Shown one piece after another: positions 19,215 through 33,004 of a stretch of 38,118 bases of DNA. Origin of the DNA: a virus. Positions within the stretch are counted from its first letter, which is position 1. Every line of letters begins with the position of its first letter. The position numbers were made by a program, and so were the translations under genes. The DNA is taken from positions 1 through 38,118 of IMG/VR virus record IMGVR_UViG_3300050821_009233; one strand, written 5' to 3'. A model generated the notes under the pieces. That model was not told where the DNA came from. It saw only the letters and a list, made by a program, of their open reading frames with translations, and made no database searches.

Positions 19215-19556
19215 GGTTGGTCTCAGATTGGAAAAAGGGGACAACGGTTGACGGGGAGCAGGCGCTCCGCAATAACGGCCGATGTGATTGCCGCACCGTC
19301 CTAGCTGCTGCCCCGACCCCCGGCGTCCGCCTGGTCGGTAGCTACAGCCCCCAGAGGAAGGGCTTCACAGATTCTTTTGAGGCGGCCTGGTGGGAATCGA
19401 ACCCACAATCTCCGGGCATACCCGGCGCTTTGCCGTTCAGCTACAGGCTGCTTTTGATCGCTGCTTCCCTCACCCCTGCGACCAAACCAGGCTTTGCAGG
19501 GCTACGAACGCCTGGCTCGCGTGCCTACTTGGGAAGCTGTGGCACGGTATGAGTCG
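19215..19556 (-). other. Noncoding gap between prohead protease and major capsid genes
   Basis: No convincing ORF on either strand fits this 342-nt stretch. It holds the tRNA-like gene at 19381-19451. The rest (19452-19556 and 19215-19380) shows no clear promoter box, terminator or repeat that I could find. It may hold a separate promoter for the highly expressed capsid gene. Confidence 0.5.
19381..19451 (-). tRNA. tRNA-like gene with shortened anticodon arm; isotype undetermined
   Basis: On the minus strand, positions 19450 to 19382 form a 7-bp acceptor (CAGCCTG with CAGGCCG, one mismatch). A D-arm with GG follows, then a T-arm GTGGG-TTCGATT-CCCAC, and C at the discriminator position. The base before the acceptor is G (19451) opposite this C, as in tRNA-His. 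The anticodon arm is CCGGG-TATG-CCCGG, or CCGG with a 6-nt loop GTATGC. It lacks the normal 7-nt loop, so no anticodon can be assigned. CCA is not encoded. The whole is about 70 nt, about 3 short of normal. It may be a degenerate phage tRNA or a tRNA mimic. Confidence 0.6.
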
Positions 19557-20282
19557 TTACACGCCGCCCTTGGCGAGATGGACGGCTTCTTTGACTGTTT
19601 CCGGAATCGTCGCGCAAATCTGCTCGGCGATCTGCTTGCGCATGCGCTTCAGGTTTTTCTTGTCGAGGACGGACTTGCGCAAGGTATCCTCACTCAAGAT
19701 CGTGTAGACCTTGGCCGGCCGCACTTCCTCCAGGCCCAGCTCCTTGGCGAAGTCGGGGGAAAGGGAAATGGCCTTGGTCTGTAGGGCGCGGGTCAGCGCC
19801 TCTTGATTGCAGCCCACGTCGCACATGCTGTATTCCACGACCTTGGCTTTGCGGTGGATGCAGTGCGCTTCTTTCCAGGCGGGATGCTCGTTGAGTTCTT
19901 TTTGCGTGGGCGCGCCGGACAGCCCTTTTTCAGCGAGGAAGCCAATGCTCCACGCCTTCATGAACTCGCCCTTGGCCAGTTGCCAGCATTCCTCGCCGCG
20001 CTGGGTTGGAGCAAAGATTGTCTTGGCGAGCCAGCCGTTGCCCTCTCGCCTTACCCAGAGGTTCTTGCCGATGGCGGGCTGGTCGTACTTGTGCGCCCAG
20101 AGGACGATGGCATTCTGGCGGTATTCGGAGAAGTCGAGCCCATCGGGGAGGACAACCTCTTTCTCGCGGTCCACGGCGTCGGTGGTGATGTAGTGAACGA
20201 CGGAGCGTTCCTGTTCGTCCACGCGCGCTTTGGCGGAGACACAGGCTCGGATGATGAGCTGACTGCGGTCAATGTCGGGCAT
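19557..20282 (-). CDS. HK97-family prohead protease
   Basis: A 241-residue protein with the prohead protease (peptidase S78-type) signatures. The catalytic His is in LWAHKYDQPAIG (His64), the catalytic Ser is in KAWSIGFL (Ser112), and early strands include VVHYITTDAVDREKEVVLP. The enzyme cleaves the scaffolding domain of the capsid protein during head maturation. The extra helical C-terminus (about 205-241, KNLKRMRKQIAEQI) is common in versions encoded separately from the capsid. It precedes the major capsid gene, separated by a tRNA-like gene. The catalytic His and Ser are both intact. Confidence 0.92.
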   Translation of the reverse strand: MPDIDRSQLIIRACVSAKARVDEQERSVVHYITTDAVDREKEVVLPDGLDFSEYRQNAIVLWAHKYDQPAIGKNLWVRREGNGWLAKTIFAPTQRGEECWQLAKGEFMKAWSIGFLAEKGLSGAPTQKELNEHPAWKEAHCIHRKAKVVEYSMCDVGCNQEALTRALQTKAISLSPDFAKELGLEEVRPAKVYTILSEDTLRKSVLDKKNLKRMRKQIAEQICATIPETVKEAVHLAKGGV

Positions 20283-22873: not shown

Positions 22874-23064
22874 TCCACCACAAACTCCAGCCCATCGAAC
22901 TCCAAAAGCCGCCCGTCCTTGAGCATCACCGTGTAGAGCGGCCGCGGCGGTCTGCTGTCCTCAAGGTACACGTTCACGATGATCCCGGCCCGCCCGTCGT
23001 CCGGCCCCTGCTGGCGGACGCGGACCTTTTTCTTCAAGAGCTTGGTGTAGAGGCGGGCTTTCAT
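22870..23064 (-). CDS. Small basic hypothetical protein
   Basis: A 64-residue protein, basic at the N-terminus (MKARLYTKLLKKKVRVR) with a beta-like C-terminus (YTVMLKDGRLLEFDGLEFVV). The size and strand pattern resemble small SH3-like or S1-like modules, but I cannot assign it. It starts by overlapping the GroES stop and ends by overlapping the 243-residue gene as ATGA, both 4 nt. Confidence 0.6.
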   Translation of the reverse strand: MKARLYTKLLKKKVRVRQQGPDDGRAGIIVNVYLEDSRPPRPLYTVMLKDGRLLEFDGLEFVVE

Positions 23065-23381
23065 TCTTTGACCACAACGGCGAGAATGTCATCCTCGCGC
23101 ATAACAAGGATATCCTCCTCCTCCTTGGAGTTGCGGTCCCCCACCTCGCTGCCGGCGTAGTTGCTCCAACAAACCTTTTGGCCCTCCTTCAGCTCCATCG
23201 GCCCGCGCTTGCCATCGTCCAGCAGCTTGCCCGGCCCGACCGCGAGCACAAAGCCCTTCCTCATCTTGCCCTGCGCGCTCTCGGGGATATGGATGTTGCC
23301 GATCTTGTCCGGCGCCTTCTCGCGGCGGATCACAACCTTGTCGCCGAGGGGGCGGTAAACGGGTTCAGACGCTTTCGCCAT
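23061..23381 (-). CDS. groES: Phage GroES-type co-chaperonin (Cpn10)
   Basis: A 106-residue protein with the complete co-chaperonin fold. It opens with YRPLGDKVVIRREKAPDK (about 9-26), matching the usual IRPLxDRVVVK start. A mobile loop follows at about 21-41, with a GNIHIPESAQ core in place of GroES GGIVLxxxA. Then come GFVLAVGPG (43-51), VCWSNYAGSEV (70-80) and a C-terminal MREDDILAVV (94-103). It would cap a GroEL ring, host or phage, and assist folding of capsid proteins, as T4 gp31 does. Its neighbour upstream in transcription is a small Cys-rich gene and downstream a small basic gene. It is not next to any visible GroEL gene. Confidence 0.9.
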   Translation of the reverse strand: MAKASEPVYRPLGDKVVIRREKAPDKIGNIHIPESAQGKMRKGFVLAVGPGKLLDDGKRGPMELKEGQKVCWSNYAGSEVGDRNSKEEEDILVMREDDILAVVVKE

Positions 23382-23944: not shown

Positions 23945-25621
23945 TCAACGCGGCTTTTGCTCTAGCCTGTCCCATACCGCTTCGGCCGCGGCCAGGTCCA
24001 GGGCGTCGGGGTACAGCTCCTCCGCGACGGCCGGCGGCCGCTTCAGGGCCTTGGCTGTTTGTGGTGGCTTCTCGGGGGCTAATTGGCTGCGCAGTAAGCG
24101 CTCGCGTCGATAGGCATCGAACATCTTGACGTTCTCGCTTTCTGGCGACAGATCGAATTCTAGCTTGATAGTGTCGCCGACTTCCTCCCACATGCGGCGG
24201 CCGCCGGGCATGAGGAATACCTCCCGGATCGTCCTGGCCTTGCGGTAGGGCTCAGGCAACAAGCGCTTGTGCTTGCGCAGGAGCGGCCCATCAAAACCAA
24301 AAAGCGGCCAGGTGTAATAACCGTTCAAGGCATCGTCCGGATCATCAGCGTCCACGCGGCCCGCTTCCGTTTCGATGGCCACAAAGCCGAGGCGCTGGGC
24401 GGTCTCTAACTGCCGCCCAAAGATGCGCATGCCCACCCCGCCGCGGCGGAACTTGTTCTTGAGGAAGGAACCGGCGTTATGAATCACGCGGTTGCCGTCG
24501 TCATCAAGGTAAAGTTCGCGGTTGGAAGTGTAGCCGGCGTGCGGACCTTTTTCGTCTGTGTAGGGTAGGCCCTCGGTGTAGACGTAGACCAGGTCGTCGC
24601 CGAAGGTCACGCGCACGTCGTAACCATCCTGCGCGCCTACCAGGGAGGCGATGTCCTGAACTTGGATGCCCGGCCCCAGGAGCTGCTCGATCTTTGTATT
24701 GGCCTGGGCCGTGCTGAATGCTCCATGTGTGACCATGGCGTTGCTAGGGCCAAACGGTTCCAGCGGCGACACCTCGGGCTCGATGCGCGAGAACGCTTCG
24801 GCGAGGCCCTCAGCGTCATCTAAGGCGATGCCGGCAGCCGGGTCTTCATCGGAGATGATCTCTTCCTGGCTGCACTGGCAATTCGGATGTAAGGGCGGAT
24901 GGGGCACGCTTTCATAGGCGGGATTCTTGCTCTGCCCCTCGGCATAGTTTTCGTCGATGCCGATTACTTTGCCGTTCAGGTCCGCGCACCGGTCGCACGC
25001 ATCGGCCGAGGCCAGCCATTTGAACCCCTCGACAACTCCCGAGGCCTTGGCCGCGATCCGCTCGGCCGAGTGAATGGCGCGGGAGGTCTCTGTAACCGCA
25101 ATGCGCCCGGCTCTGTATTCCTCCGCCCCGTCGAAAATCTCATTGACCCGCTTGCGCATCTCCGCGCGCGGGTCGCCGGCCACGACGCCGTTGAGCACGT
25201 CCTCCCGGAGCTGGGCCAGGGCGTCGTTTAAGTCTTTGCTGGTGGTGGCGTTGGTTTCGGCGCAGAAGTTGAGCGCTAGCTGTTCTGCGGCCCGGGAGAT
25301 TTGCGGGTTGATGACCTGGAAGACTTGATTCGATGCGCCCACGCGCGGGTGCACCTGGCCGATGCGCTTGAGCGCCTTGTCCGCCGACTCTTCAAAGTAC
25401 AGCTCGATCAACGGCTGGACTTCATGCGCCACGGCAGGAGTGCCGCCGGCGAAGTCTTCGATGTTGACGAAGTGAGGCGGCAGCTTGGCCGGCTTGTCAC
25501 TGAGCGGCTGGGACAGGGGCGGGCGTTTCGCGGTCAGCTCCTCGAGGAGCTTCGTTTGGTTGTCCAGCCAGTGGAGTATCTCCTGGCGCTGCTTGCGGAA
25601 AAACTTCTCTAAAACGGTGCG
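23945..25621 (-). CDS. MuF-type minor head protein with C-terminal GNAT-like domain (5' part in another frame)
   Basis: This frame has no usable start nearby; the coding signal begins about 25621 with TVLEKFFRKQRQEIL. The open frame reaches back to 25849, but its first ~76 residues look like a shadow. Numbered from 25849 (so minus 76 for the mapped part), the MuF/SPP1 gp7 core runs to about residue 330, with VTETSRAIH (252-260), CDRC (285-288) and PPLHPNCQC (318-326). A second domain at about 430-560 contains RRGGVGMRIFGRQLETAQRL, similar to the acetyl-CoA loop and helix of GNAT enzymes, and GYYTWPLFGFDG. MuF proteins act in head assembly and DNA ejection, and MuF fusions to toxin domains are known. 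The 5' end is in the neighbouring frame at 25497-25880. Confidence 0.75.
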   Translation of the reverse strand, partial: RTVLEKFFRKQRQEILHWLDNQTKLLEELTAKRPPLSQPLSDKPAKLPPHFVNIEDFAGGTPAVAHEVQPLIELYFEESADKALKRIGQVHPRVGASNQVFQVINPQISRAAEQLALNFCAETNATTSKDLNDALAQLREDVLNGVVAGDPRAEMRKRVNEIFDGAEEYRAGRIAVTETSRAIHSAERIAAKASGVVEGFKWLASADACDRCADLNGKVIGIDENYAEGQSKNPAYESVPHPPLHPNCQCSQEEIISDEDPAAGIALDDAEGLAEAFSRIEPEVSPLEPFGPSNAMVTHGAFSTAQANTKIEQLLGPGIQVQDIASLVGAQDGYDVRVTFGDDLVYVYTEGLPYTDEKGPHAGYTSNRELYLDDDGNRVIHNAGSFLKNKFRRGGVGMRIFGRQLETAQRLGFVAIETEAGRVDADDPDDALNGYYTWPLFGFDGPLLRKHKRLLPEPYRKARTIREVFLMPGGRRMWEEVGDTIKLEFDLSPESENVKMFDAYRRERLLRSQLAPEKPPQTAKALKRPPAVAEELYPDALDLAAAEAVWDRLEQKPR

Positions 25622-25880
25622 TAACGGTTTCCCAGTCGGAAGTTTCCGGGTGTGTCCAGGGGTCGCTTTGCGGAAAGGAATTGCCCGGCGGGCTAGCCTC
25701 CTTTCGACCGCATTCGCAGGTGAAAGGCGCGGCGCAGGTGCAACAGATGAGCTTCCCTTGCACGGCCGTCCGGACCGCCTCGTTAGGCTTGGCGAGGATT
25801 CCGGGACAATCGGCGTACAGCAAGGCAGGGTGCTTGCGCACGGCAGCAAGGCGGGCGGCTTCGGAGACGAAGTAGCTCAT
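25497..25880 (-). CDS. Probable N-terminal part of the MuF-type minor head protein, out of frame
   Basis: A 127-codon frame starting at ATG 25878-25880, coupled to the RNA ligase stop as ATGA. Residues about 1-85 (MSYFVSEAARLAAVRKHP onward, with LICCTC and CECGRKE near residues 44-59) look like real protein, possibly a small zinc site. From about residue 90 the sequence becomes a shadow of the frame that encodes the MuF core. The most economical reading is one gene whose two halves are offset by one base. The switch is probably near 25611-25614, where a run of four A (four T on the coding strand) could carry an extra base. A programmed +1 or -2 shift is also possible. Confidence 0.6.
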   Translation of the reverse strand: MSYFVSEAARLAAVRKHPALLYADCPGILAKPNEAVRTAVQGKLICCTCAAPFTCECGRKEASPPGNSFPQSDPWTHPETSDWETVTHRFREVFPQAAPGDTPLAGQPNEAPRGADRETPAPVPAAQ

Positions 25881-26452
25881 GGGGCGGCGGGCTTGAGTTT
25901 GAGACCGAAATCTTTTTTCTTGATCTTCACCATGCGGCCATCTGGGTGATGCCAGACGATGCCCTCGATGTCGAGCGGCGCCAGATAGGCTTTGATTTCG
26001 TCGAACGTGCGAGGGCAGTCCAGGAGGCGAATGCAGCCGTGGCCGATCAGATGATGGCCGCCGAATCCTTCAGGGTTGCCGTTCACTTTCGGGCCGCACA
26101 ATTCATACGTGCCATCGGCAAGCGGCTGGCCGCCCGTGTTATCGAGATCCTCCCACGCGGCGCGGTGCCAGCGATCATCGGCGCTTTGTCCGACAGCAAC
26201 CCAACCTTGAATTTTCCCCGTGACAGGGTCGCCAGCTACCGCCTCGAAATGCTCCGGAGACTTTCCGCCCGGCTTGATCTCATAACGGCGGAAAAGCATG
26301 CCGTCGCGCACCAGACAGCAGGAACCGTCCACCTTTTGCGTGGCAACGCCTTCGCCGGCTAGCACCCATTCCGCGCCCGGCACTACTTCATTGCGCACCA
26401 GATGGTCGCCGTCGTAGTTGCGCTGGAAGAGGGAGATGATCTTCTGCATCAA
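25877..26452 (-). CDS. RNA ligase family protein (nucleotidyltransferase fold, DUF5565-like)
   Basis: A 191-residue protein with the ligase nucleotidyltransferase motifs. Motif I KVDG is at 40-43 (nucleophile Lys40) within VATQKVDGSCCLV. A GTYELCGPKVNGNPEG block lies at 114-129, motif IV EGIV at 163-166, and motif V KIKKKDFG at 176-183. Size and spacing match a family of short RNA-ligase-1-like proteins (DUF5565, as I recall it). Such enzymes join RNA ends after adenylylation of the Lys; in phage T4 RNA ligases repair nicked tRNA. It lies in the accessory block, one gene from the alarmone-hydrolase-like gene and near a tRNA-like gene. The OB fold of larger ligases is absent. Confidence 0.8.
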   Translation of the reverse strand: MMQKIISLFQRNYDGDHLVRNEVVPGAEWVLAGEGVATQKVDGSCCLVRDGMLFRRYEIKPGGKSPEHFEAVAGDPVTGKIQGWVAVGQSADDRWHRAAWEDLDNTGGQPLADGTYELCGPKVNGNPEGFGGHHLIGHGCIRLLDCPRTFDEIKAYLAPLDIEGIVWHHPDGRMVKIKKKDFGLKLKPAAP

Positions 26453-26461
26453 AGTAGCTCA

Positions 26462-26905
26462 TTACACAGAGAGAATGTGAGCGGCCAGCATCCATTTATC
26501 GCGGACGCTGTTTTTGTTTTTCATGTCCTTGGAGTCGTTCAGGTTGCACTCGATGTCCGCCAGTTTGATGCGACGAACCATCTCGTGTTTGCGCAGCTCC
26601 AGAATGTATGCCAGGTAGGTCTGCTCTTCGCGATGGGTCAATAACTCTACAGCGCAGACCGTTTCGTAAGGCATTCCCGCGTCAAGGAGGTAGCCAAGCG
26701 TAAGGGGCGTGTCTTCCACGACGTCATGCAGCCAGGCGATAGCTTCGTATTGCCATCCATACCCGGCAACGGTTTTGGCCACCGCTTCGGGATGAATGAT
26801 GTACGGTTCGCCGCCCCAACGCTTTTGCCCTTCGTGCGCATTGGTCGCGATGGTCTTGGCGAGCTCAACGCAGGGATAGCCAACAGTGCGCATGTACTGT
26901 ATCAC
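26462..26905 (-). CDS. HD-domain alarmone hydrolase (SpoT/MESH1-like)
   Basis: A 147-residue single-domain protein with the HD signature of (p)ppGpp hydrolases. HEGQKRWGGEPYIIHP (24-39) gives His24 and His38. WLHDVVEDTP (58-67) has the HD pair His60/Asp61 and the ED pair Glu64/Asp65. The KLADIECNL stretch is at 114-122. It is close in length to MESH1-type small hydrolases (about 180 residues). It would split ppGpp to GDP/GTP and pyrophosphate with Mn2+, lowering a host stringent response. No synthetase domain is present, so it is a degrader only. The start is ATG 26903-26905, overlapping the upstream stop. All HD residues are intact, supporting function. Confidence 0.8.
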   Translation of the reverse strand: MIQYMRTVGYPCVELAKTIATNAHEGQKRWGGEPYIIHPEAVAKTVAGYGWQYEAIAWLHDVVEDTPLTLGYLLDAGMPYETVCAVELLTHREEQTYLAYILELRKHEMVRRIKLADIECNLNDSKDMKNKNSVRDKWMLAAHILSV

Positions 26906-27928: not shown

Positions 27929-28016
27929 TCTCCGCGGGGGGAATCGAACCCCCACCCACCAGCGCTACCGTGGGAAGGGATGTACGCCCTTACGTGTGCC
28001 GTTTCGCTACACGGAG
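27929..28016 (-). tRNA. Class II tRNA-like gene with long variable arm and non-canonical anticodon loop
   Basis: On the minus strand a 7-bp acceptor (CTCCGTG with CGCGGAG, one G-U pair) is followed by discriminator A. The D-arm is reduced but carries GG. The anticodon arm AAGGG-CGTACAT-CCCTT has a normal 7-nt loop, with G instead of U at position 33. A long variable arm follows (CCCAC/GTGGG, 5 bp), then a T-arm GGGGG-TTCGATT-CCCCC. Long variable arms occur in tRNA-Leu, -Ser and bacterial -Tyr. Read normally the anticodon is TAC (Val); shifted by one it is GTA (Tyr). CCA is not encoded. It fits exactly between two late ORFs with 2 nt on each side. It is a degenerate or specialised tRNA. Confidence 0.7.
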
Positions 28017-28412: not shown

Positions 28413-28682
28413 TCAGGCGCCTTTTGCAATGGGATCCCAGACCGGCGCACCATTCGCGCCCTCACTGGTAACAAGCCCGCCGTCCGGAGCAGCGGTAAAG
28501 CGCGGGCCTTTGAGCGCATTCCGGATGAGATGCGCCGCGACCTTGCCCGTGAAAGCCGCCTCGGCGTACTCGTCGCTTTCAAGCAGCCTGGTTATCTGCG
28601 CCCGCGCCTGGTCCTTGCCCTTCTTGCGCTCCCGGCGCAGGAGTTTCGACAGGGCCTTGATCGCCTGGTGTTTTGCTTTCAT
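28413..28682 (-). CDS. Small hypothetical protein overlapping the portal gene's end
   Basis: An 89-residue protein, basic and helical at the start (MKAKHQAIKALSKLLRRERK), ending in a Gly-rich tail. Its start lies 104 nt inside the portal gene in another frame, so the low-complexity portal tail and this protein share sequence. The Arg/Lys-rich helices suggest binding of nucleic acid or another virion protein. The 103-nt stretch 28310-28412 after it has no convincing ORF. Confidence 0.5.
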   Translation of the reverse strand: MKAKHQAIKALSKLLRRERKKGKDQARAQITRLLESDEYAEAAFTGKVAAHLIRNALKGPRFTAAPDGGLVTSEGANGAPVWDPIAKGA

Positions 28683-31209
28683 CGGGAACCTCGATCACGC
28701 GCAGCGTTACTTGCTTCTGTCCCAACAGCACGGCGGCCGCCAGTTTCGCCGCGCCGCTCACAATGATCAGCCTGCCCTTGTTTGACAGCACGGCGGGCTC
28801 GGGGGCGTCAAGCCTGCCGTCGATGGCCTCTTCCACGCGGCCGCGGTGGAGCGTGATTTCATTGGCCAAAACCAGGCTGGCCAGCTCCAGCGTCTTAAAT
28901 TCCCCCTCGGCGTACTGCTCTGGGGTGAAGGTCGGGCGCGTCTCAGTCAGCACTTCGAAGGGCGCCGGAATCTGATCATCCGGACCAATGGGCGGTACGC
29001 CCTGCAGTTTCTCCTTGGCCGCCCCGATCTCCTTGCCTCTGACTCCTTGCGCCGTCTTCTTGTATTCGTCCCCTAGTTCCACACACCAAACTGAAGGTTG
29101 AATGTCAAGCACGCGCGCAAGACAGAGTCGCGTATCACCACTGAACAGATAACAGTCACCTGAATCGAAACAGAGCACGATGGGGGCGCGTACCTTTCCA
29201 GAAAGAAAGTCGGCGAGTATCCGTCGTACCTTTCGCTTTCGGGAATGGGCGACGCGCATAACGTCGGAAAGCTTGGCGACGTCGAGGGAGTTGGTTCCTG
29301 CGATTCGCTTCCAGAGCTTATCCTTGAGGGGGACCAGGCCTCCCTGTCGGAGCTCGTCTCGAAGCTCGTCTGCAGAGCACCGGTATCCCTGCTTATCGAG
29401 TTCTCCGGCGATGCGCTCGGCGTCGGCCTTGGTTTTCTTCGAGCCGAAGTCCGGCTTTTGCCACTTGATCTTGGCGCCTTTTTCTTGCCAGAGCGTGGCG
29501 ACCTTGTCGCTAATGCGGTCATGCTGGTTGGTGTCCTCAAAACCTTGGAGGGCGATGTCTAGTTGCTTGTATAAATCCCGGTCGCCTGGTTCGCTCAGGC
29601 AGCGCGCCGCGACTTCCTCACCGTAGGCTTCCGCGAGGATGGCAAAGCCGGCTTCTTTCGAGAGCCCACCATCACGGACAGCCGCCGCCAATCGGAGGCA
29701 CTCATCAACGCTCGGCTTACCCTGGTCAGCAGATACAGCGGCCGCGCTTTCAGGGTGATCTTCCGGAAGTGCGCCTTTACCTTTCGGACCTTTGGGCTTT
29801 CCACCAGCCACACCCCGGCCGGCATTTCCGTTTGCTCCACCACCAGCGCCTTGCCCGGGCATCGGCTTCGCGGGCGGGTTGCCCGAGGCGTCGAGGACCT
29901 GCTGGTTCGTGGGCAGAGTGGGCTTTTTCGCCCATTCGGCCGATTCCTGGCCGTCTGCAATCCTGGCTTCGTCCCGGAGGGTGATCCCCGCTTGGACGTA
30001 GGCGACGGTTTTCTTGACCTTGGCATCTTCGTCATCGGGGATCGGGTTGTCGGATGCTACGAACAAGCGGCCACTATCGTCATACCACGGCATCACGACG
30101 CGGTTGATCGTTTCGTCCTGGTTGATGACGCGAGGGCGCACGGCAAAGCGCGCGTGCTGATCGAGCGAGGCCTCCAAATTGGCGAGGTTGGTGTCCTTCG
30201 TGGCCAGCGCCTGGGGCACGCCGTAAGCGTCGAAAATCTGGTCTCGGTTGATGCCCATCGCCTCGAAGACGCCGAGGTCCACGGGCGACCAGCCCAGGGG
30301 CTGCAGCTTCATGCCGCTCTCGGTAACCATCAAGCCGCCAAAGCCGGCCGCGCGGAATTTGGTGTTGAGCCGCGTCTCCAGGCGTTTCTGCTCGTATTCC
30401 CCGATTGCCTCCTCGGGCGAAAGGATCGCGTCGGGCCGGGCCTGGTTGTCGAGCAGGGCCTGGTAGTGGCCGATAAACTGCTCGTTGACGTTCACATGCT
30501 CGATCAGGGCCCACAAAGGCGACATGCCCAGCGCGTAGGGTTCCCAGGGGTTGAACATCCGATAGTGGACGATGTCCGCCGGGTCGATCTTGACCAGCGT
30601 GCGGGCGCCCGCAAAGGCGTAGTAATCCACCAGCTCCTTGGCATTGGGATCGACGCGCACGGGCCAGACCTGGTGCGCCGGCAAGGGCCACAGCTCGGTA
30701 GGCACTCCCAGGCGGTCACGCGCGCCTACGTACTCGTAGGCATTGCCCACGATGTCCATGTAGCTGCTGCGCGTGATGCTCAGAAAGTGCGAATCGTAAT
30801 AAGGATTTGGCCGCGCCGTGAGATCAAGGTAGCGGTGATCGGTGACCTCCTCCACGTCGGTGTCGCCGGCGATCCGCCCGGACATGCTCGACTGGGAGCG
30901 GAGGTATTCCTGCTTCTGGTTCGAGAGGCCCTTGATCTTGCATTTGGGCCGCGGCTCTCCGCGGCGCGTTTGCACGTAGAGCTTGCGCGCCACGCATGCG
31001 CCCGCCTCGGCGTTCAGGCGCACGCAGGTGTAGACGGCGTTCCGGTACTGGGCGACGAGCTCGGCCGGCGTGGGGATGCGCTGTTTCTTGTACCGATCGG
31101 TGTAAGCCGGCCCGTAAGCCGTGCCGCCCGTGCCGTACAAACCGAGGCCCTGGACGGGGCTTTTGACGTGCAGGCCGGAGGAGGATACTTGCAGTTGGGT
31201 GGTTTCCAT
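28579..31209 (-). CDS. HK97-type portal protein with a long C-terminal ParB-like extension
   Basis: A 876-residue protein from ATG 31207-31209 (no Shine-Dalgarno). Residues about 45-440 are the portal core: RNAVYTCVRLNAEA (56-69), IVGNAYEYV (153-161), WPLPAHQVWPV (174-184), the DIVHYRMFNP segment (212-221), GMSPLWALIEHVN (228-240), and NRDQIFDAYGVPQALA (321-336). Portal rings form the DNA entry vertex. A Gly/Pro/Lys-rich linker (440-490) leads to an extension of about 380 residues. Two parts resemble ParB/sulfiredoxin-type loops: APIVLCFDSGDCYLFSGDTR (675-694) and IIVSGAAKLAAAVLLGQ (815-831). The usual portal length is 400-550, so this is a fusion. A helical basic region (635-670) precedes the first ParB-like motif. 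The role of the extension is unknown. Confidence 0.85.
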   Translation of the reverse strand: METTQLQVSSSGLHVKSPVQGLGLYGTGGTAYGPAYTDRYKKQRIPTPAELVAQYRNAVYTCVRLNAEAGACVARKLYVQTRRGEPRPKCKIKGLSNQKQEYLRSQSSMSGRIAGDTDVEEVTDHRYLDLTARPNPYYDSHFLSITRSSYMDIVGNAYEYVGARDRLGVPTELWPLPAHQVWPVRVDPNAKELVDYYAFAGARTLVKIDPADIVHYRMFNPWEPYALGMSPLWALIEHVNVNEQFIGHYQALLDNQARPDAILSPEEAIGEYEQKRLETRLNTKFRAAGFGGLMVTESGMKLQPLGWSPVDLGVFEAMGINRDQIFDAYGVPQALATKDTNLANLEASLDQHARFAVRPRVINQDETINRVVMPWYDDSGRLFVASDNPIPDDEDAKVKKTVAYVQAGITLRDEARIADGQESAEWAKKPTLPTNQQVLDASGNPPAKPMPGQGAGGGANGNAGRGVAGGKPKGPKGKGALPEDHPESAAAVSADQGKPSVDECLRLAAAVRDGGLSKEAGFAILAEAYGEEVAARCLSEPGDRDLYKQLDIALQGFEDTNQHDRISDKVATLWQEKGAKIKWQKPDFGSKKTKADAERIAGELDKQGYRCSADELRDELRQGGLVPLKDKLWKRIAGTNSLDVAKLSDVMRVAHSRKRKVRRILADFLSGKVRAPIVLCFDSGDCYLFSGDTRLCLARVLDIQPSVWCVELGDEYKKTAQGVRGKEIGAAKEKLQGVPPIGPDDQIPAPFEVLTETRPTFTPEQYAEGEFKTLELASLVLANEITLHRGRVEEAIDGRLDAPEPAVLSNKGRLIIVSGAAKLAAAVLLGQKQVTLRVIEVPDESKTPGDQGPVETPAPGAQEGQGPGAGADNQAA

Positions 31210-31215
31210 TAGAAT
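31210..31215 (+). promoter_or_regulatory. -10 box TAGAAT for the 31236 gene
   Basis: TAGAAT lies 20 nt before ATG 31236. A possible TTGCAG at 31189-31194 is only 15 nt upstream, shorter than normal spacing. It is followed by an AGGAGG ribosome site (31225-31230), so unlike the other plus-strand genes this mRNA would have a short leader. Confidence 0.45.
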
Positions 31216-31235
31216 GACGTGCAAAGGAGGGGGCG

Positions 31236-31526
31236 ATGCCGCATGCTCTGATGGCACAGCATGAAGAAAATCCGCACAGGCAACCGCTGCTCTTGAGTGC
31301 GCGCTTTCGCTGCGACTGCGCGGCCAATGAGGTGCTAACGGTCCAGACGGTGATCGATCTTAATTTGCCCGACGATGTCCTGGAGTGGACCTTGCGGCTA
31401 CTCGTTCTCGACGTGCGCCGCGAGGTCCGGCAGCACATGACTCGAGCCTCGCCAGATCCGGCGGAGGCAGCTGCCCTCGCCGGCATTAACGAGCGGATCC
31501 GCACGGCCGAGCATCTCGGCGTCTAG
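31236..31526 (+). CDS. Opposite-strand hypothetical protein between portal and large terminase (moron candidate)
   Basis: A 96-residue protein with a strong AGGAGG Shine-Dalgarno ahead of its ATG, the best ribosome site of the window. The N-terminus has FRCDCAANEVLTVQ (about 24-37). A middle helix-rich region holds LPDDVLEWTLRLLVLDVRRE, and the end is charged. No zinc pair, membrane span or family was seen. It reads against the packaging genes, its stop overlaps that of the large terminase by 4 nt, and it has its own -10 box. This is the typical layout of an expressed cargo gene. Function is unknown. Confidence 0.65.
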   Translation: MPHALMAQHEENPHRQPLLLSARFRCDCAANEVLTVQTVIDLNLPDDVLEWTLRLLVLDVRREVRQHMTRASPDPAEAAALAGINERIRTAEHLGV

Positions 31527-33004
31527 CGCCAGCTTTCCCAGCCATAGTCGCGCAAATGCTCCTGGTTCAGCCGGCGCTGCTCTTCTGCCTCTGTCTCCGT
31601 CCGCTCGGGTTTCTCGGGTTTGCTGAAGCGCGTCTGCTTCATCGGCTTGCGATAAGCTTCAGGGCTTTCTGGATCCAGACTCGCCGGCGATGGCGGGGTT
31701 GGATCCGGCGGGGGCTCGGGTATGCCTTGCGGCCGGCGGCCGCGGTCGATGCCCATCACCATGTAACGCAACGCGTCGGGGGCGTGATCGTTTTCCTTGA
31801 CGGGGTCATCTTTACTGGTTGTCTTCTCGGGATCGTAGTGATAGAGCCCTAATTCTCGAATCAAATTCGGGCAAGTGCGGTGGACGAACAGGCGCCCTGT
31901 CCCCATGCGTGCGCCCACGGCGCGGATCCCATCGGTAACGGCCTTGTCGGCAGCCCGGCAGCGAATGCCGCCGCGCCTGAGTTTTTCGATCGACTGCGGA
32001 TTGGCGCTGTCGCAGAAAGTCAGGTCCATGCCCCATTTGTCACAGAGCGGCCGCGCCTTAGCCGCCAACACTTCATCGGTCATGTGCGAGCCGTACACTT
32101 CCGCCACGACATGCAAGACGTCGTCCGGCGTCAGAACCCCTGTCAGCAAACAACTGGGGTTATGCCAGCCGAAGTCCGCGCCGCCAAACGCTCTGAGTTT
32201 GTCCCAATCTCCGCCCTGGGGAGACTGCTTCAAATCGACAGGGTCGATGATGCAGGCCTCGTAACCGGGGTAGACCAGGCCCATCATCTGGGTGAACGAG
32301 CAGTAATACTCCTGCTGGACGTAGAGCTCGCCATAAGACGCCCGGTCGTTCTCGATCACGGTCTTGTCGAGGCGAGGGCAATCGTCGGCGGTGATGCGTA
32401 CGCGTTTCCAGTCCGCCGGCTTCGGGCGCGGGTTGCCCTGCTCATCGACCGAGGCCCACTCGCGATAGAAGTAACCTTGCTTGCCGTACGGCGTGGACAG
32501 GCAAATCAGCTTGCACGGCCGCGTCTTCAAGGCCAGCATGGGCGAGATCGATTTGAACAGCTCATCTTCCACGCGCGAGGCTTCGTCCACGATGATCAGG
32601 TCCGGCGTCCACCCGACCGCGGAGTCGGGGTTGCCGGTCATCGGCATGATGCGCGAGCCGTTCTGAAAATCGAGGATCGACGTCTTGTCCGTGCCGCGCC
32701 GTACGGGCCGGCCCAACTTCTTATAGAGCGTCTCCAGCGTATAGAGCAGCTCGTCGGATTGCTTCCCCGCGGGCGCGAAGATCAGCGTAAGCGTGGGCTT
32801 GTCCTTCTGCGAGAACATCGCCGTGTGCAAAGCCTTGATGGCGGCGCAGGTTGTCTTCCCTGAGCGGCGCGAGCAGTTGAGCAAGGCGCGGCGATAGTCC
32901 GACTGTAGAAATTCGACCTGCCAGGGATCGGGGTCCAGGCCCAGGTCCTCCAGCATGGCCGCGGCGTCGTACGACCAGTAATCAACCCGAAACTTGCTCG
33001 CCAT
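31523..33004 (-). CDS. terL: Large terminase subunit (ATPase-nuclease)
   Basis: A 493-residue protein. The ATPase domain has Walker A CSRRSGKTT (44-52, Lys50), Walker B LIIVDE (136-141), and an ICLSTPYGKQGYFY coupling motif near 169-182. The C-terminal nuclease domain has GGADFGWHNPS, FCDSANPQSIEKL and ENDHAPDALRYM, the Asp residues of the RNase H-like fold. This motor cuts and packages DNA with the small subunit and docks on the portal. It overlaps the small subunit gene by 23 nt. The C-terminal Pro/Glu/Arg tail (about 435-493) is variable. All catalytic motifs are intact. Confidence 0.95.
   Translation of the reverse strand: MASKFRVDYWSYDAAAMLEDLGLDPDPWQVEFLQSDYRRALLNCSRRSGKTTCAAIKALHTAMFSQKDKPTLTLIFAPAGKQSDELLYTLETLYKKLGRPVRRGTDKTSILDFQNGSRIMPMTGNPDSAVGWTPDLIIVDEASRVEDELFKSISPMLALKTRPCKLICLSTPYGKQGYFYREWASVDEQGNPRPKPADWKRVRITADDCPRLDKTVIENDRASYGELYVQQEYYCSFTQMMGLVYPGYEACIIDPVDLKQSPQGGDWDKLRAFGGADFGWHNPSCLLTGVLTPDDVLHVVAEVYGSHMTDEVLAAKARPLCDKWGMDLTFCDSANPQSIEKLRRGGIRCRAADKAVTDGIRAVGARMGTGRLFVHRTCPNLIRELGLYHYDPEKTTSKDDPVKENDHAPDALRYMVMGIDRGRRPQGIPEPPPDPTPPSPASLDPESPEAYRKPMKQTRFSKPEKPERTETEAEEQRRLNQEHLRDYGWESWR

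Follow-up and report, generated by a model that had tools for sequence, protein, structure and literature searches.

Portals are among the most conserved machines of the virion, and to our knowledge their C-terminal fusion partners have until now been either MuF or predicted effector domains. What, then, is carried by a portal that continues far beyond its core, and what could the added part do there? The question arises from a window of 38,118 nucleotides, the whole stretch of viral DNA analyzed here (record IMGVR_UViG_3300050821_009233), in which an HK97-type portal and a C-terminal extension of ~375 residues form one protein of 876 residues. It is encoded by a single open reading frame on the minus strand, 31209-28579, running from an ATG at 31209 to a stop codon at 28579-28581. 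Its parts, together with the gene that precedes it, are as follows.

31523-33004, minus strand: terminase large subunit (PHROG 2, E 6e-46)
29890-31209, minus strand: portal core, residues 1-440 (PF04860, phrog_2662, Rcc01684)
29710-29889, minus strand: Gly/Pro/Lys-rich linker, residues 441-500, pI ~9.7 (length similar among relatives, sequence unconserved)
29314-29709, minus strand: helical region, residues 501-632 (low-confidence AF2 secondary structure and three-sequence alignment)
29065-29313, minus strand: ParB/Srx-like domain 1, residues ~633-715 (hhalign, identity to L106)
29128-29139, minus strand: P-motif-like GDTR within domain 1, G691-R694 (alignment; P motif according to PMC12704722)
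28930-29064, minus strand: connector between the ParB-like domains, residues 716-760 (identity comparison)
28660-28929, minus strand: ParB/Srx-like domain 2, residues ~761-850 (hhalign, hmmsearch, VIA)
28579-28659, minus strand: low-complexity tail, residues 851-876, and stop codon (overlapped in another frame by gene 28413-28682)

Profile comparisons identify the core as a portal. With hmmscan, PF04860 (Phage_portal) covers residues 115-418 at E 5.1e-37, scoring 128.2 bits against a gathering threshold of 39.1. The PHROG matches are likewise portals (phrog_2662, E 1.4e-49, and PHROG 12), and the solved GTA portal Rcc01684 (PDB 6te8/6tba) aligns with residues 124-345 at E 3e-10. The gene lies directly after that of the terminase large subunit, an order that is kept in a related viral contig, L002. 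The first-pass annotation of this DNA had let the core end near residue 440 and a linker follow, in agreement with the extent of PF04860 and a linker at 441-500. It had also called the protein nearly twice the usual portal size, which is true relative to bare portals but not relative to the portals of the nearest named phages, which reach ~620-715 aa including a C-terminal MuF domain.

The same colinear architecture is found in three independent viral contigs, namely the window, L002 and L106, which rules out an out-of-frame fusion or an assembly chimera. The L002 counterpart has 883 aa and is 63% identical, and that of L106, whose portal scores 139.5 bits against PF04860, has 853 aa and is 39% identical. 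Identity to L002 is 78% in the portal core, 42% in the linker and 64% in the connector, with estimated dN/dS below 1 throughout. Identity to L106 is 47-48% in the portal core, 15-18% in the linker, 28% in the helical part, 47-53% in domain 1, 35% in the connector and 24% in domain 2. Domain 1 is thus the most conserved part of the extension and, judged from these alignments, is held as tightly as the portal itself, since its identity to the most distant relative matches that of the portal core. It is immediately preceded by an LKDK-x-WKRI motif (628-636). The first-pass annotation had allowed for the region being unconserved; the extension is in fact conserved and colinear in both relatives. 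Results on the conservation of the extension as a whole refer to these three sequences.

Curated libraries were silent on the extension: neither it nor its pieces matched a recognizable family in Pfam, NCBIfam, PHROGs or PDB sequences, and PF02195 had no match anywhere in the 38 kb record. A dedicated ParB N-domain profile was therefore compiled; it comprises 12 phage ParB loci, two Noc, PadC and E. coli YbdM. Searched with this profile by hmmsearch with all filters off, the extension yielded only two sites, 675-702 in domain 1 (APIVLCFDSGDCYLFSGDTRLCLARVLD) and 805-842 in domain 2 (PAVLSNKGRLIIVSGAAKLAAAVLLGQKQVTLRVIEVP), the latter with E 0.0015 in the two-sequence search. Profile-profile comparison of 95-residue windows over the whole protein gave exactly two peaks, at domains 1 and 2, and did so in its two-sequence version as well. 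With three sequences, hhalign scores against the ParB profile were 24.2-24.5 for domain 1 (P 3.5e-4 to 4e-4) and 27.0 for domain 2 (P 1.1e-4), over short aligned lengths of 29 and 54 columns; windows away from both domains reached at most 16.8, and 0 of 300 column shuffles attained the score of either domain. In a ranking of single sequences against 471 windows from other phage ORFs, none scored above domain 2 of the window protein and 3 scored above its domain 1; for L002 the counts were 1 and 26, respectively. P1 DdrB, a known member of the superfamily, scored only 13.5 in this test, which is therefore insensitive, and its absolute scores mean little. The two peaks coincide with the motif positions remarked on at first reading (675-694 and 815-831). 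Together with PF04860 they support, at the level of sequence, the ParB-like extension on a portal that was proposed there, and more exactly a portal fused to an extension of ParB/Srx type.

Relatives of the extension are few. No relative emerged from a genome-collection scan with an alignment of two sequences, scanning viral and genome collections for DNA motifs returned L002 only, and none of 79 further loci in a terminase-based scan had a related portal carrying the extension. Several weak matches were set aside. Five from tblastn of the window's domain 1 in phages (E 2-7) were not used as evidence, among them a Dinoroseobacter match antisense to an annotated gene, a Musetta match outside annotated genes and one in a Synechococcus entry; a ParB/RepB/Spo0J protein from a plasmid search, although matched at the right place, was too weak at E 6. 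Domain 1 of L106, searched against 50,697 phage records, found one protein, p033 of Rhodothermus phage RM378 (tblastn E 4e-4), so that the stand-alone homologues sought since the first reading exist for domain 1. RM378 p033 comprises 149 aa (3743-4192 of L108), and its gene adjoins those for the tail sheath and tail tube and lies a few kb from the portal gene; homologues occur in two Alishewanella phages, Slicko01 and Slickus01. These proteins resemble domain 1 in an SG[ND]TR motif and a PIVL strand, but are separate proteins of ~150 aa with no portal fusion. On its own, p033 aligns over 69 of the 80 columns of the ParB profile, and with it and the Alishewanella protein added, domain 1 rose to a score of 30.2 (P 4.6e-5), the best of 200 shuffles reaching 20.1. 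The domain family is invisible to current libraries, and its stand-alone form occurs in large myoviruses.

As a separate observation, RM378 p033 and its Alishewanella homologues make up a small unnamed ParB-like family in large phages; the best PHROGs of p033 are two ParB-like families, neither match being significant (E 0.16 and 0.32).

A canonical CTPase ParB has a Box I C-motif of QPR type, GERRxxA, an HTH and a ParA partner, and a sulfiredoxin enzyme has its catalytic Cys directly before HR in a GGCHR motif. The three-sequence alignment contains neither a canonical QPR-type CTP C-motif nor GERR, and the sulfiredoxin cysteine was not found there, the motif reading SGDTR/NGNTR with a conserved Cys696 after the arginine. 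A partition system was accordingly rejected, as the canonical ParB motifs were not seen in the alignment and PF02195 was without a match in the record, and so was membership among sulfiredoxin enzymes, whose defining cysteine is absent. DdrB-like ParB domains are described in the portion of Iyer et al. 2017 (PMC5512222) drawn on here as having an extra helix with a conserved Tyr between the terminal helix and a strand. This inserted helix is missing from the window protein, in which VLDIQPSVWCVEL directly follows the helix and the gap between LARVLD and the following strand is only about four residues, leaving no room; membership among the DdrB-like domains was rejected because the defining residues are absent.

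What domain 1 does retain is the P motif of the ParB fold, GxxR, whose arginine, when changed to alanine, abolished NTP binding in diverse members (PMC12704722). The motif reads GDTR in the window and in L002 and GNTR in L106, T693, R694, L695 and C696 are invariant across the three portals, and the stand-alone relatives RM378 p033 and Slicko01 carry SGNTR. At the corresponding position domain 2 has GAAK, GFGY and GLAD, without the arginine in any of the three. Both motifs noticed at first reading are ParB/Srx-like, but they are unequal: the GxxR arginine is kept in domain 1 (R694, 3/3) and lost in domain 2 (3/3). The likely working copy is accordingly domain 1, domain 2 being probably degenerate. 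Beyond the fold and GxxR, we found no likeness of the domain to nucleases or CTPases.

In structure prediction, an AF2 model from two sequences had a low mean pLDDT of 50.5, with 44.3 for domain 1 alone, and the whole model gave no significant Foldseek match. Domain 2 was modeled at pLDDT ~70 as strand-strand-helix-strand-strand-helix-strand, an order that fits ParB/Srx, and its best three VIA matches (model 262-348) were all human sulfiredoxin: 7lj1_a at Z 4.0, 3hy2 at Z 3.9 and 1xw4 at Z 3.2, values that are weak alone. The strand and helix order of domain 1 in its low-confidence model fits ParB/Srx too, and no VIA match to that model reached Z >=2.

The nearest portals of named phages bear on where the extension is placed. 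Those of Aussie, ctLpZ231 and Roos (~620-715 aa) carry MuF at the C-terminus, which makes this a known docking position. PF04233 is absent from the 876-aa protein, extension included, and MuF is encoded separately in the window, L002 and L106. Two further head genes of the window are relevant.

23945-25849, minus strand: separate MuF head protein (PF04233, E 3e-12; TIGR01641; homologues in L002 and L106)
19557-20282, minus strand: prohead-protease-like protein (PHROG head maturation protease, E ~1e-8; homologue in L106)

The Peptidase_S78 match of the latter lies below the cut-off. L106 and the window both encode MuF, a prohead protease and a major capsid protein, and L002 and the window share terminase, several small genes, an HD protein and MuF. 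Portal-MuF fusions have been described in Microbacterium clusters EA/EB (PMC7302621). In such fusions, as in PHROG 2662, Sinorhizobium phage Aussie and Faecalibacterium phage Roos, the extension is MuF, whereas in the window it consists of ParB/Srx-like domains and MuF stands apart. The portion of PMC5512222 drawn on here also treats portals fused to PBECR, 2H or InPase domains as well as packaged head proteins that contain DdrB-like ParB domains, and reads all of these domains as injected. Effector-type portal fusions of this kind are alike in placing a virion-carried, non-portal domain on a portal, but the domains differ from the ParB/Srx-like ones of the window. P1 DdrB shares with the extension the ParB/Srx superfamily, association with the phage head and a GxxR-type arginine, and the P1 record has no sequence match to the extension. 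A ParB-portal fusion is not named in that portion of PMC5512222, and the main text of PMC12704722, a survey of the ParB fold, does not contain the word portal. Fusions to portals are known, and so are ParB-like domains of phages; their joining appears undescribed in a literature search conducted mostly outside subscription journals.

Solved portal structures show the C-terminal helices as a barrel on the capsid-interior side. The 765-residue Pa193 portal has such a C-terminal barrel, its residues 529-765 not being visible (PMC11042391). Because this barrel faces the capsid interior, the chain of the window protein would pass from there through a flexible linker and a helical region to two domains of the ParB/Srx superfamily, and a dodecameric portal would place twelve tethered modules in the lumen, surrounding the channel through which DNA enters. 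Domain 1 modules are probably nucleotide-binding, judging from GxxR, with domain 2 a degenerate and probably structural or dimerization partner. The modules would take a nucleotide and/or the DNA of the phage, or a protein inside the head, as their ligand; at the portal vertex, where the nearest relatives have MuF, they would help to assemble the head, package the genome or handle DNA. A portal with tethered, luminal ParB-like modules that serve assembly, packaging or DNA handling is the best explanation as a whole, and we give it about an even chance. Its parts differ in standing. That the protein is a portal subunit with two ParB/Srx-superfamily domains is very probable, and the functional part, binding of nucleotide, DNA or a head protein in assembly, packaging or DNA handling, is put forward tentatively, as somewhat short of an even prospect; location in the lumen, nucleotide binding and the role in assembly or packaging are what we infer. 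A core virion role is favored because domain 1 is constrained like the portal and RM378 p033 lies among virion genes, and portal-like constraint in these alignments argues for such a role and not for a fast-changing weapon.

The main rival is an effector ejected with the DNA: a virion-carried enzyme (an NTP-regulated nuclease, nucleotide hydrolase or phosphotransferase) that would be detached from the portal, for instance through prohead protease cleavage in the linker, and enter the host. The portal fusions and packaged DdrB-like domains read as injected in PMC5512222, as drawn on above, lend it weight, as do polymorphic toxins with ParB-fold domains (PMC3482391), the prohead-protease-like gene and flexible basic linker of the window, and the presence in the head cluster of further genes probably aimed at the host (HD/alarmone-hydrolase-like, RNA ligase). 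We nevertheless consider it unlikely, if the strongest competitor: domain 1 evolves at the slow pace of the portal, no catalytic site was recognized beyond GxxR, and because the ring remains in the capsid, release would need the putative cleavage. Alternatively, the ParB/Srx fold may be a ligand-free interaction or scaffold element that replaces a fused MuF structurally and binds the separate MuF, the protease or a scaffold. The nearest portals do carry MuF at this very position, with MuF separate in the window, L002 and L106, and domain 2 lacks the P-motif arginine; a pure scaffold, however, would need no GxxR, a motif that domain 1 keeps without exception in the three portals and that the stand-alone homologues also have, leaving this reading with perhaps one chance in several.

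Least probable of all is that the short ParB/Srx resemblance is coincidental and the extension has another alpha/beta fold. The lack of family matches, low-confidence models and short alignments would fit such a coincidence, but two independent sites, both in register, outscore all 300 shuffles and the remaining protein, p033 aligns over the whole ParB domain, sulfiredoxin tops the structural matches of domain 2, and the predicted order of strands and helices agrees.

A further and rather improbable reading would make the portal a nucleotide switch: twelve luminal ParB-like domains would bind NTP, with domain 1 active and domain 2 its degenerate partner, and would thereby gate or sense DNA filling, the end of packaging or ejection, or hold the end of the packaged DNA as a clamp. 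If true, this would be a ParB-type switch working inside the virion. More broadly, the fusion suggests that some portals may have a built-in nucleotide-responsive part inside the capsid, and a conserved ParB/Srx-like tandem of one intact and one degenerate nucleotide site would, if true, bring the ParB fold to the vertex at which DNA is packaged. R694 would offer a single-residue handle on whether the portal responds to nucleotides.

The neighborhood of the gene holds several further features. A small minus-strand gene at 28413-28682 begins with a basic N-terminus (MKAKHQAIKALSKLLRRERKK) that is conserved in L002 (MSKSRHQAVKALAKLLKK). At its start it shares the final ~100 bases of the portal gene, read in a different frame, and this may account for the low-complexity tail of the portal. 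On the other side (31210-31526), just before the portal ATG, AAAGGAGGGG on the plus strand resembles a ribosome-binding site for a plus-strand ORF of 96 aa (31236-31526); L002 keeps this motif although its plus-strand ORF there stops after seven codons.

In the MuF protein (23945-25849, minus strand), a C-terminal region of ~290 residues reads as GNAT acetyltransferase-like (GVGMRIFGRQLETAQRLGF...NGYYTWPLFGFDGP), with no Pfam match to that region; the MuF ORF of L106 stops before it. The head cluster also encodes, at 26462-26905 on the minus strand, an HD_4-like protein that L002 keeps (Pfam E 5.5e-4, below the cut-off; PHROG 990 phosphohydrolase, E 8e-35), in which HEGQKRWGGEPYIIHPEA and WLHDVVEDT are typical of small alarmone ((p)ppGpp) hydrolases. 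Between this gene and MuF lies an RNA ligase (25877-26452, minus strand; PHROG 14301, E 4e-69; RLIG1 in Pfam) that is missing at that place in L002 and is therefore a recent insertion or loss. A GroES-like co-chaperonin (23061-23381, minus strand; Cpn10, E 2.4e-22) adjoins the head genes. Two tRNAs fall inside the head gene region: an unusual one at 19381-19450 on the minus strand, with 49 bits to the Rfam tRNA model and no clear anticodon loop according to ARAGORN, and a tRNA-Val(TAC) at 27929-28016.
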